Assembly (NCBI GenBank): GCA_903899845.1
Contig: CAIUKV010000079.1
Span: forward strand, 1-52,829
DNA: 52,829 nt
Source: an uncultured Actinomycetes bacterium
Lineage (GTDB): Bacteria > Actinomycetota > Acidimicrobiia > IMCC26256 > PALSA-555
Direction of reading: 5' to 3'
Both the position numbers and the translations under genes were made by a program. Of this stretch, positions 1-52,078 are shown piece by piece. Below the pieces are notes generated by a model. It was not told where the DNA came from. It did not search any database and saw only the letters and a program-made list of their open reading frames with translations. Each line of letters begins with the position of its first letter. Positions within the stretch are counted from its first letter, which is position 1.

Positions 1-2
1 CC

Positions 3-305
3 GTGTCCCTCGCTTCCGCACCGCCCGACTCCACCGACTCCACCGACTCCACCGACTCCACCGACTCCACCGACTCCACCGACTCCACCGACTCCACCGA
101 CTCCACCGACTCCACCGACTCCACCGACTCCACCGACCTCACCGACCCCACCGACCCCACCGGCCCCGACGAGCGCGGGCTCGCCACCGCCGAGCTGCTC
201 GGCAACGCCGCCCTGGGCATCGCCGCTCTCGTCGCGATCTGGGCCGTGCTGCAGTCGATCGGGCTCGACGTCATGGACTGGATCCGCGCGCAGCTCCAGG
301 TGTGA
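3..305 (+). CDS. Flp-type prepilin with a DST-repeat leader
   Basis: Small pilin-like protein of 100 residues. After 12 perfect Asp-Ser-Thr repeats (residues 9-44) comes an ERGLATAE segment, then a hydrophobic helix (about 65-85) and a short polar end. Gly59 followed by Glu at +5 (G|LATAE) fits the class III prepilin peptidase site of Flp/Tad pilins. Downstream TadE/TadG-like genes support a role as the pilin of a tight-adherence pilus. The repeat lies in the leader, before the predicted cleavage site, which is unusual because Flp leaders are normally short. No ATG, GTG or TTG lies between the repeat and the cleavage site, so translation must start upstream of the repeat. The GTG start is two bases from the window edge, so the true start may lie outside. 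It could also be a DUF4244-like protein. Confidence 0.65.
   Translation: MSLASAPPDSTDSTDSTDSTDSTDSTDSTDSTDSTDSTDSTDSTDLTDPTDPTGPDERGLATAELLGNAALGIAALVAIWAVLQSIGLDVMDWIRAQLQV
27..134 (+). repeat. 12 copies of a 9-bp tandem repeat (GACTCCACC)
   Basis: The 9-bp unit GACTCCACC is repeated 12 times without a mismatch and encodes (Asp-Ser-Thr)12. Degenerate copies (GACCTCACC, GACCCCACC twice) follow at 135-161. Because the unit is a multiple of three, copy-number change would keep the reading frame. Perfect identity at synonymous sites suggests recent slippage expansion. Confidence 0.97.
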
Positions 306-709
306 GGATGCGCGACCGGTCCGTCGGCACGACCCCGGCCGAGTCCGGGACGGCCTCGCTCGCGTTCGTCGTCGCAGCGGCGATGGCGTGCGTCGTGTTC
401 GTCGTCCTCGCCGACGTGGTCACCCTGCAGTACACCCGCCAGTCGGTGGACGCCGCCCTCGACGAGGCGGTGCGGGCGGGCAGTCGGGCCGATGCGCCGG
501 TCGCGGTGTGCGCCGACCGGGCCCGGGCGGTCCTCGCCGGACTGCTCGGGCCGGCGGCCCGCCGCGGGATCGTGGTGACCTGTGCGACCACGGGCACGCC
601 GCCGGTGGTCCGGGCCCGGGCGACGGTGACCCGGGCGGCGTGGCTCCCCGGGATGCCGGGATGGTCGGACGCCCGGGCCCGCCGCGCGGTGCTGGAGGTG
701 CTGCCGTGA
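302..709 (+). CDS. TadE-like pseudopilin
   Basis: Protein of 135 residues with one N-terminal hydrophobic helix (about 18-42) preceded by an ESGTASLAF segment, as in TadE-family pseudopilins that join the base of Flp pili. The rest is an extracytoplasmic domain with two cysteines (about 70 and 95) that could form a disulfide. The GTG start overlaps the stop of the prepilin gene by 4 nt (GTGA), which implies translational coupling; an ATG two codons later is also possible. The family call rests on the helix position, size and neighbours, because TadE sequences diverge strongly. Confidence 0.7.
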   Translation: MRMRDRSVGTTPAESGTASLAFVVAAAMACVVFVVLADVVTLQYTRQSVDAALDEAVRAGSRADAPVAVCADRARAVLAGLLGPAARRGIVVTCATTGTPPVVRARATVTRAAWLPGMPGWSDARARRAVLEVLP

Positions 710-1161
710 CGCGGCGTCCCCCGCGTCGCTCGCGGTCGACCGGTCCCGTGCGGGCCCGGGGTGCGGCGGGCTCCGCTGCGGTCGAGTGCAGCGCGGGCAT
801 CGCGCTGCTGCTCCTGCCGGTGGTGCTCCTCGTCGCCCTCGTCCCGACGTGGGCGGAGCGCCAGGGTCTGGCCCGGGTCGCGGCCCGGGACGCGGCGCGG
901 CGGGTGGCCCTGGTCGGGTGGTGCGACCGCGCCGGGGCCGACGCCGTGGTCGCCGACCACACCGGCGACCTCCCCGCCGGCGCCGCCCGACTCGACCTGG
1001 ACTGCACCCCGGGGGCGCCGTTGGCCCGGGGTGGCGCAGTGACCGCCCGGGTCACCGTGGCGATGCCCGCCCTGGTGGTCCCCGCCCTCGGCGTCGGACC
1101 CGGGTGGCAGTGGACCGCGGTGCACCGCCATCCCGTCGATCCCTACGGGAGCCGGCCGTGA
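706..1161 (+). CDS. TadE-like pseudopilin
   Basis: Protein of 151 residues with a basic N-terminus and the sequence AAGSAAVE just before a long hydrophobic stretch (about 27-50). Gly followed by Glu at +5 matches the prepilin peptidase site, and a helix containing ERQGLARVAARDAARR follows, as in TadE proteins. Start chosen as GTG with a 4-nt GTGA overlap on the preceding stop. The reading frame stays open upstream, but that extension runs antiparallel to nothing known and overlaps the previous gene entirely. It is the third member of a four-gene pilin cluster whose TadA/B/C motor genes must lie to the left of the window. Confidence 0.7.
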   Translation: MTRRPPRRSRSTGPVRARGAAGSAAVECSAGIALLLLPVVLLVALVPTWAERQGLARVAARDAARRVALVGWCDRAGADAVVADHTGDLPAGAARLDLDCTPGAPLARGGAVTARVTVAMPALVVPALGVGPGWQWTAVHRHPVDPYGSRP

Positions 1162-1604
1162 AGCGGGCGCGCGGTGGTGCCGAGCGGGGGACGGTCACCC
1201 TGTGGATCCTCGGGCTCGCGTGCTGCACGCTGCCCCTCGGCGGGTTGGGGGTCGATCTCGGCCGGGCCGTCTCGGCCCGCCGGGCGCTCGCGGCCGCCGC
1301 CGACGCTGCGGCCCTGGCCGGGGCCGGGGCGCTCGACGAGGCCCGCTACCGGGCGTCGGGCGCGGTGGCGCTCGACCCGGGCGCGGCCGCGGCCCGGGCC
1401 CGGGAGTCGGTCGCGGCTCAGGACGACCGGGCCGGGCTGCGGACCGTGACCGTCGACGCCGACCCCGCCCGGGTGACCGTCACCGTCACCGGCACCGTCG
1501 ACCTCACCCTGCTGCGACTGGTCCGGGGCGGGCGGCCCTTCGTGGTCCGGGTCGAGGCGACGGCCCGGCCCCATCTGCTGCCTTGCTGCCCTGACCGGCC
1601 CTGA
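1158..1604 (+). CDS. TadG-like pilus assembly protein
   Basis: Protein of 148 residues. The N-terminus (RGTVTLWILGLA, then hydrophobic residues to GLGVDLGRAVSARRALAAAADAAALAGA) is the classic TadE/TadG-like (PF13400) signature with the VDLGR and AADAAALAGA motifs. The remainder is a short beta-rich region (TVTVDADPARVTVTVTGTVDL). It lacks the von Willebrand domain of full-length TadG, so it is a short actinobacterial type. The GTG start overlaps the previous stop by 4 nt. Its stop codon lies inside a 10-bp tandem repeat, so repeat slippage would change the C-terminus. Confidence 0.78.
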   Translation: MKRARGGAERGTVTLWILGLACCTLPLGGLGVDLGRAVSARRALAAAADAAALAGAGALDEARYRASGAVALDPGAAAARARESVAAQDDRAGLRTVTVDADPARVTVTVTGTVDLTLLRLVRGGRPFVVRVEATARPHLLPCCPDRP

Positions 1605-1620
1605 CCGGCCCTGACCGGCC
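1589..1620. repeat. 10-bp tandem repeat over a stop codon
   Basis: Three copies of CCCTGACCGG and a fourth partial copy. The TadG-like gene terminates at the TGA in the second copy. Since 10 is not a multiple of 3, the copies present TGA in successive frames. Confidence 0.9.
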
Positions 1621-1727
1621 CTGATCTGCCCCGGAGGCCCCCGGAGGCGCCGGGAGTCACCGGGATCTCCGACCCGGGGTCGCCCCGACCCCCGGTCCCG
1701 ACGGCGGTGGGTCCCGACCGGCGGTGG

Positions 1728-37211: not shown

Positions 37212-37227
37212 TGTAATGATCACTACA
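37212..37227. promoter_or_regulatory. Palindrome TGTA-ATGATCAC-TACA over a start codon
   Basis: A 16-bp dyad with one mismatched pair (TGTAnTGATCAnTACA) that covers the transcription start region and ATG of the hydrolase gene, next to a divergent TetR gene. Likely the operator of that TetR protein. Confidence 0.6.
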
Positions 37228-38151
37228 AACAGCGGGGGGAGCGGGGAGAGCGGGGAGAGCGGGGAGAGCGGGGAGAGCGGCGGGAGCGGCGGGAGCGGCG
37301 GGAGCGGGGACGCCGACGGGTTCCGCCGCCCACCCGACCGCTGGGTCCCGGTGGCCCAGGGGGCCGTGGGCGTGCGGACCTTCGGCGCCGGACCCGACGT
37401 CGTGTTCGTCCACGGCTGGCCGGTGAGCGGCGCCACCTTCCGCCACCTGGTGCCCCTCCTCGCCCCGCACTGCACCTGTCACGTCCTCGACCTGCCCGGG
37501 GCGGGCGCGAGCCGGTTCGATCCCGCGGTCCCGGTGAGCGTTGCCGGGCACGTGGAGGCGGTCCGGGCCGTGGTCGATGCGCTCGGCCTCGCGTCGTTCG
37601 CGGTTGTGGGGCACGACAGCGGCGGGCTCATCGCCCGGCACGCGCTGGCCGACGACCCCCGGGTCCGGGCGTGGGGCCTGCTCGACACCGAGCACCCGGG
37701 CCGGCCCGGGTGGCGGTTCCGGTCCATCCTGGCCCTGCGTCGACTCCCGGCGTTGCCGCGCGTGGTCGGGGCCATGCTCGGGTGGCGCGGGCTCCGTCAC
37801 CTCGCCGTGGGCGCGGCGTTCGTCGACCGCCGCGGGCTCGACGGGGAGTTCGCCGAGTTCTTCTGCGACCCGGTGCGCCGCGACCCGGCCCGACGCACCG
37901 CGTCGGCGCAGGTCGTGCGGTCGTTCGACCTCGCCCTGGTCGACGCCCTGCCGGCGGTGCACCGGCGCATGACCGCACCGGTCCGGTTGGTGTGGGGTGC
38001 CCGGGACCCGTACTTCCCGGTGGCGGCGGCGCGCGCGATGGTGCCCACGTTCCCCGACGCGACGTTGGTGGTCGTCGACGACGCGGCCCTGTTCGTGCAC
38101 GAGGAGCAGCCGACGGCGGTGGCCGCCGCCCTTCGCCCCGTGCTGACCTGA
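37216..38151 (+). CDS. Alpha/beta hydrolase with Asp nucleophile (epoxide hydrolase/dehalogenase-like)
   Basis: Protein of 311 residues. After a Ser-Gly-Glu repeat tail (6-32) comes an alpha/beta hydrolase fold: oxyanion motif HGW (66-68), nucleophile elbow GHDSG (132-136) with Asp134 in the nucleophile position, acid WGARDPYFP, and His in FVHEEQP near the end. An Asp nucleophile is the mark of epoxide hydrolases and haloalkane dehalogenases rather than esterases. Cytoplasmic by sequence. The promoter and start codon are covered by a palindrome next to the divergent TetR gene, so expression is probably inducible. Confidence 0.83.
   Translation: MITTNSGGSGESGESGESGESGGSGGSGGSGDADGFRRPPDRWVPVAQGAVGVRTFGAGPDVVFVHGWPVSGATFRHLVPLLAPHCTCHVLDLPGAGASRFDPAVPVSVAGHVEAVRAVVDALGLASFAVVGHDSGGLIARHALADDPRVRAWGLLDTEHPGRPGWRFRSILALRRLPALPRVVGAMLGWRGLRHLAVGAAFVDRRGLDGEFAEFFCDPVRRDPARRTASAQVVRSFDLALVDALPAVHRRMTAPVRLVWGARDPYFPVAAARAMVPTFPDATLVVVDDAALFVHEEQPTAVAAALRPVLT
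37231..37311 (+). repeat. Nine 9-bp tandem repeats encoding Ser-Gly-(Gly/Glu/Asp)
   Basis: Nine consecutive 9-bp units of the form AGCGGNGNN: one AGCGGGGGG, four AGCGGGGAG, three AGCGGCGGG and one AGCGGGGAC. They encode a flexible N-terminal tail of the hydrolase. Confidence 0.95.
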
Positions 38152-51400: not shown

Positions 51401-52078
51401 TCACCGGGCCACGGCGGTACGCGCCGGGGCGGCCCGGGCTCGGCTGCGGGCCAGGCGACGGTGCTCGTCGGCGCCGTAGACCGGGCGGTCGTCGGGCCCG
51501 GCCCCGGCCGGCGCCCCGACCCGCACGCCCGCGGCGGCGAACGCGGCGGCGAGCTCGGTGGCGCGCTCGGGTCCGATGAACTCGGCGGTGGCATCGACGA
51601 GGACGCGGGTGAACGTGGTGCCGTGGTGGGGCAGGCCGGGGTCGGACCACAGCGCCCAGTGCACGAGCTCGTGGAGCACCACGCCCTTGGTGCGGTAGCG
51701 CCGGGGGAGGGTGATGGTCGGGCCGGTGGGCTCGTCGCGGAAGAACGCCTGCCGGGCGCCGTTGCCGGGCCGGAACCGGGGGAGGCCGCCGAGGTCGCAG
51801 GCCGGGAAGCGGACCGCCCACCACAGCGACCCCACCACCCGCTCCGCGAAGGTGCGGCAGGCGTCGAGCCCGGGGAGCGGGCTCACGCCCACCGCCGACT
51901 CCGCTGCGTACACCCGGGCCCGCTGCGCGTCGCGGGGCCGCCGGGGCTCGGCGGCTGCGGCGTCCGGGGCGTCGAGGGAGTCGAGGGAGTCGAGGGCGTC
52001 GAGGGCGTCGGGGGCGTCGGGGGCGCTCGCCCCGCCCCGAGGGACCGGGGCCGCGGTGGGGGGGCGGCCGAGCCTCAC
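51401..52078 (-). CDS. Zinc metallohydrolase of the TIGR04338 type
   Basis: Protein of 225 residues. The family opening RDAQRARVYAAE (49-60) and the zinc site HELVH (136-140) with a third-ligand region GLPHHGTTF (149-156) are clear; this SprT-like actinobacterial family has no known substrate. The first 45 residues are a low-complexity tail with (Ala/Ser-Leu/Pro-Asp) units from a 9-bp repeat. The GTG start overlaps the upstream SDR stop by 4 nt. A shorter protein from an internal start cannot be excluded because the core begins near residue 45. Confidence 0.83.
   Translation of the reverse strand: MRLGRPPTAAPVPRGGASAPDAPDALDALDSLDSLDAPDAAAAEPRRPRDAQRARVYAAESAVGVSPLPGLDACRTFAERVVGSLWWAVRFPACDLGGLPRFRPGNGARQAFFRDEPTGPTITLPRRYRTKGVVLHELVHWALWSDPGLPHHGTTFTRVLVDATAEFIGPERATELAAAFAAAGVRVGAPAGAGPDDRPVYGADEHRRLARSRARAAPARTAVAR
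51960..52023 (-). repeat. Seven 9-bp repeats encoding (Ala/Ser)-(Leu/Pro)-Asp
   Basis: On the plus strand the units read GTCGAGGGA/GTCGAGGGC/GTCGGGGGC. They encode the acidic N-terminal tail of the metallohydrolase. Confidence 0.9.

Follow-up and report, generated by a model that had tools for sequence, protein, structure and literature searches.

How a prepilin can carry twelve identical copies of a 9-bp unit ahead of its cleavage site, and whether this array serves the pilus, is the question raised by the first bases of the window, a 52,829-nucleotide stretch of DNA that corresponds to contig C79 of genome G000, starting at the first base of the contig, and that begins mid-locus. A second contig of the same genome, C138, provides the upstream part, its final 134 bases being identical to window positions 1-134 save for one mismatch at 127. 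The gene most probably encodes a functional precursor of a Tad pilin; its cytoplasmic leader, predicted to be disordered, would have been enlarged by slippage of the 9-bp unit, would be cut off, and would be hardly constrained in length.

The repeat array and the Tad locus around it

The open reading frame at the window edge translates as VSLASAPP-(DST)x12-DLT-DPT-DPT-GPDERG|LATAELLGNAALG..., in which each of the twelve Asp-Ser-Thr units is encoded by GACTCCACC and the three diverged units by GACCTCACC and then GACCCCACC twice (Table 1). TRF, run on the window, reports 15.3 copies at 25-162 with a score of 248, and the perfect period-9 run extends over 113 bp (25-137), whereas 50 dinucleotide shuffles of the window yielded no array of at least five copies and a top TRF score of 91. 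The reading frame and the repeat score thus confirm the description in the earlier note of a 12-copy Asp-Ser-Thr repeat within a prepilin leader, and the whole repeat lies ahead of the predicted G|LATAE site, as that note had stated.

Table 1. Positions of the prepilin gene, its parts and the downstream Tad genes in the window
Feature	Position	Strand	Basis
Prepilin gene of the Tad locus (100 codons, starting with GTG)	3..305	+	ORF; Shine-Dalgarno and upstream gene on overlapping contig C138; family; synteny
Array of 12 identical units encoding Asp-Ser-Thr	27..134	+	Repeat inspection, TRF
Three diverged units, DLT, DPT, DPT	135..161	+	Read from sequence
Predicted leader peptide, 59 residues	3..179	+	Charge -16 overall; Arg58 the sole basic residue
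Predicted prepilin peptidase site G|LATAE	177..194	+	Cleavage would fall between 179 and 180
Predicted mature pilin, 41 residues, one helix	180..302	+	Helix 58-98 in AlphaFold2 model
TadE-like gene, weak sequence support, mainly position	302..709	+	PF13400 E 0.71, TIGR03816 E 0.15
TadF-like gene, named by position only	706..1161	+	Relative in 55/67 family loci
TadE/G-like gene	1158..1604	+	PF13400 E 2.9e-10, above cut-off

The contig C138 supplies CCTGGAGGATCC|GTG, which places the Shine-Dalgarno sequence GGAGG ahead of the GTG at position 3, with the tadC stop shortly upstream. The nearest upstream in-frame stop lies at -102, and no further in-frame ATG, GTG or TTG occurs between it and Gly59, CTG at -63 being the sole in-frame start-like codon upstream of the GTG. 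Because of this Shine-Dalgarno sequence and the lack of any other ATG, GTG or TTG start, the predicted leader of 59 residues, from the GTG to Gly59, stands, and a true start that would exclude the repeat, against which the earlier note had cautioned, is not present. Two other gene models were rejected. No alternative start 3' of the array is available in frame (ATG, GTG, TTG or CTG, from the start to Gly59), and antisense coding, through an open Val-Glu-Ser frame across the array, is dismissed since the sense gene is kept in the sister locus. A search for structured RNA on the upstream contig piece gave no Rfam match, and a profile search of solved structures gave no match up to E 10. A 27-base exact match to the array is present in three viral contig records, of which the parts examined look unrelated and contain no visible pilin.

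The genes upstream on C138 are ordered RcpC/CpaB, TadZ-like, TadA, TadB-like and TadC. CpaB/RcpC (TIGR03177, E 3e-21) and TadC (PF00482) match above cut-off, and TadA matches PF00437 above cut-off and TIGR03819 at E 5e-56, under the equivalog cut-off, while the TadB-like protein remains under the Pfam cut-off (21.3 of 25.2 bits). The prepilin gene thus lies in a Tad locus with TadA and the two platform proteins TadB and TadC, as is characteristic of Tad (type IVc) prepilins. Across the 67 family loci described below, a TadC-like match ends at most 300 nt upstream of the pilin in 64, and downstream a relative of the TadE-like gene is found in 62 and TadG-like matches in 63; the TadF-like gene itself has no match to any Tad family searched. 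A 10-bp direct repeat of 3.7 copies (window 1588-1624) runs across the end of the last Tad gene.

A pilin family with Glu-Leu in place of Glu-Tyr

The prepilin belongs to a family of Tad-locus prepilins, G|xxTAELLGNAA, that matches no Pfam model above cut-off and comes mostly from records with Acidimicrobiia or Actinomycetota in the title. A first search gave matches in 18 of 41 genomes, part of them only low-complexity, and a search with the core alignment gave matches in 27 of 58 genomes of the order, a weak match in G011 being left out. The contig search yielded 67 confirmed loci from 177 candidate stretches, and all searches collapsed to 70 distinct rows. Stretches matching through the repeat or long frames only were excluded (L025-L027 and L029-L034, L025 having no family row), and L028 represents this very array where C138 ends and is not independent. 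Start codons of the relatives are predictions chosen by Shine-Dalgarno score; L094, which has no good start, was left out of the leader statistics, which therefore use 69 of the 70 rows.

In an alignment of 30 members the G, the T-A-E and the L-x-G-N-A-A positions are invariant, and all 70 distinct rows carry Glu at +5 and Glu-Leu at mature positions 5-6. The sequence has the features of a class III signal, namely a hydrophilic leader ending in Gly, a hydrophobic helix and Glu at +5, and the predicted mature part of 41 residues is very short and appears to form a single helix without a globular domain. In the AlphaFold2 model residues 61-100 reach block pLDDT values of 91-98, whereas residues 1-60 are modelled without secondary structure at 53-67.

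These features agree with those of Tad/Flp (type IVc) major pilins, which share the Tad locus, the G|xxxxE motif, Glu5 and a short all-helical mature part, as described in PMC10191384, PMC6916266 and PMC12075869 (class III signal, Glu5, short helix). However, the label "Flp prepilin" in the earlier note is only partly retained: the protein is a Tad-type prepilin with G|LATAE, but it falls outside Pfam Flp_Fap, with no match to PF04964 at E 10, and differs from Flp_Fap pilins in its 59-residue leader and in carrying Glu-Leu, whereas the Glu-Tyr pair of Flp pilins is described as invariable in PMC9531140. DUF4244 pilins of actinobacterial Tad loci resemble it in their position between TadC and TadE-like genes, a position that Rv3656c of M. 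tuberculosis also occupies according to the gene names listed in PMC9531140, but they too carry Glu-Tyr. The prepilin has no match to DUF4244 (PF14029) above cut-off, while 5 of 15 family members match weakly (best E 0.037), and a profile comparison of the family with DUF4244 gives a probability of 80% and E 1.4e-5 over 26 columns, aligning the cut site and half of the helix. In the same genome the DUF4244 pilin is a separate gene in a second Tad locus (L146 4356-8439, contig C254), and the Flp_Fap pilin, the genome's only such match, is another separate gene (L197 6119-6313, contig C144); both have predicted leaders of 20 residues. This 2.9-Mb genome accordingly contains three different Tad/Flp-type pilins and a single Peptidase_A24 match, located on C147. 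The locus thus points to a Tad pilin family, marked by Glu-Leu, for which Pfam has no model.

An extreme leader and the origin of its repeat

The leader, with 59 residues, a net charge of -16 and one basic residue, is the unusual feature of this gene. The 68 other family rows have leaders of 8-40 residues (median 20.5) and a family median charge of 0, and the review PMC6916266 puts type IV pilin leaders at 6-51 residues; the remark in the earlier note that the leader is unusually long is borne out by both comparisons. A Tad prepilin leader can thus apparently reach 59 residues of acidic character, with hardly any basic ones, past the published type IV pilin range, a point relevant to the requirements of prepilin peptidases and of membrane insertion. 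Long leaders cut off by the prepilin peptidase are also described, in PMC10191384, for type IVb and Streptococcus sanguinis pilins, although their assembly systems differ from that of the Tad locus. The papers retrieved by literature searches showed no tandem-repeat pilin leader.

The nearest relative, in the sister genome G001, has a leader of 27 residues, no array and the same Shine-Dalgarno sequence, and its mature part differs at 1 of 41 residues, with four synonymous and one nonsynonymous codon differences among 42 codons. Other congeners have leaders of 28-30 residues, and no array of this kind was found in them. TCC makes up only 18% of the Ser codons sampled, yet all 12 units are identical; because independent codon choice would produce this with a probability of about 1e-11, the array represents copied DNA. 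This pattern points, from sequence comparison, to recent tandem duplication in a length-tolerant leader.

Short arrays also occur elsewhere in the genome, and the pilin array is one instance of this habit. G000 has 10 distinct arrays of at least five copies in 351 kb (11 rows, one array appearing twice) and the sister genome has 7 in 129 kb, compared with one each in 95 and 100 kb of two relatives in the order, these densities coming from partial, unmatched samples that differ in G+C content (74% vs 67-69%). N-terminal extensions with 9-bp arrays are found in two further window genes, and no N-terminal preference is claimed because the remaining sampled arrays lie at protein C-termini or are not placeable. 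One of the two, an alpha/beta hydrolase (PF00561; window 37216-38151), has a Ser-Gly-Glu/Gly array at its N-terminus, with 8.9 units of nine bases, that is absent from its relative in G002. The other, a HELVHWAL-motif protein without a Pfam match (window 51401-52078, minus strand), has a Leu-Asp-Ala/Ser array near its N-terminus; in its G001 relative there is a triplet-like run that is shorter and degenerate, and the G003 relative has none. Like other in-frame bacterial short tandem repeats, the pilin array combines exact 9-bp units, a kept frame and a disordered peptide, and the repeat itself is probably ordinary slippage.

In the proposed mechanism, the Asp-Ser-Thr array would have grown by slippage or unequal recombination of the 9-bp unit, recently and in this species only, and the leader retains the DERG residues (-4 to -1) bordering the cut site. 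The precursor would insert with its leader on the cytoplasmic side, as PMC10191384 describes for type IV prepilins, whose leader is in the cytoplasm at insertion and is cut by the peptidase after Gly; applied to this prepilin, that scheme would keep the array from ever appearing on the pilus surface. Here the prepilin peptidase would cleave after Gly59, and the 41-residue helix would be polymerized by TadA/TadB/TadC, whereas the excised array would probably be degraded and the mature pilus little affected. An uncut leader would, as for type IV pilins in general, stay in the cytoplasm and impede assembly, and the display of an uncut repeat proposed in the earlier note is accordingly unlikely. 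Cleavage, pilus assembly and the near-neutrality of the array are, in this account, what we infer from the gene and its relatives.

Competing readings of the array

The near-neutrality of the array could be questioned on the grounds that the acidic leaders of the genus, together with an acidic run of another type in G003, may reflect selection for an acidic leader. This reading, to which we give a small chance, holds that a long, negative, disordered tail functions before cleavage, for instance by separating prepilins from one another, delaying their processing or binding the peptidase or TadZ/TadA, with the repeat as the newest route to lengthening. All four genus members indeed have acidic leaders (net -4, -4, -10 and, in the window, -16) of 27-59 residues, and three of the four, namely the present prepilin and those of G001 and G003, contain no Lys or Arg outside the last four leader residues, a pattern shared by only one other of the 69 family rows, with an 8-residue leader; the leader of G003 has its own Glu-Thr-Glu-Pro-type run. 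However, the pattern involves four related genomes whose leader sequences are mutually unrelated, and in other families leaders of 8-24 residues, whatever their charge, precede the same cut site.

It is improbable that the array acts in the mRNA, where about 110 nt of C-rich, nearly unstructured sequence behind the start would lift translation of the pilin over that of its neighbours; equally improbable is the corollary that copy number sets the amount of pilin in an operon of 74% G+C while the peptide is incidental. The predicted folding energies initially appear favourable: -4.4 kcal/mol for the first 160 nt of the pilin gene, against -51.0 (first 130 nt) and -71.8 (first 160 nt) for the two other window genes with N-terminal arrays, and -18.6 for positions -30 to +90, against -47.2 in the sister. 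In addition, the leader coding region, at -15.9, is less structured than all 300 independent synonymous recodings (mean -46.4), and GACTCCACC is the least structured of 12 sampled codings of Asp-Ser-Thr. However, the units descend from one copy, so that repeating a single random unit is the fair control, and there a fraction of 0.117 of 300 draws, all of them with GACTCCACC itself, reaches the observed value, which is not significant. Windows around the start codon (-12.9 and -7.5) do not differ from those of the sister (-10.4 and -8.8), and one of nine genes compared, L043 from a low-G+C genome, is about equally open (-10.9). Because of the fair control and a start region no more open than that of the sister, an effect on expression is not favoured. 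That the array is a translation rheostat, a low-structure 9-bp unit placed in an excised peptide of a gene with 74% G+C, is quite improbable; if true, its copy number would change pilin output and leave the mature pilin unaltered.

The earlier note had also suggested a phase or dosage switch. Frame-shifting phase variation is rejected because the unit length is a multiple of 3: gain or loss of 9 bp keeps the frame, and the array lies inside the coding sequence, where it alters neither frame nor promoter. Tuning of length or dosage by copy number is possible but unsupported. A contingency locus, in which pilus assembly would be switched or graded by a copy number that varies from cell to cell, is very unlikely: the pure period-9 run of 113 bp could plausibly be mutable, and mixed alleles in the sampled population could account for the contig break and for the A/T difference at 127, but the unit allows no frame switch, the difference observed is a base change rather than a change in copy number, and a search for a second assembly of the species found none.

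The mismatch at 127, with T in C138 for A in the window, converts Asp to Val in repeat unit 12 and follows exactly 126 shared bases, as we infer an A/T branch in a k=127 graph would produce. A 127-mer graph could span the 113-bp pure run, which makes the count of 12 plausible, this being an assembled value from one assembly of the species with a contig break within the array. An assembly artefact, in which the real copy number is very different or the flanks were wrongly joined by the array, is hardly credible: both C138 and C79 terminate at the array and differ by one mismatch, but at least 11 units are present independently in each, and the junction is right because most of the length of both flanks is identical to the intact sister locus.
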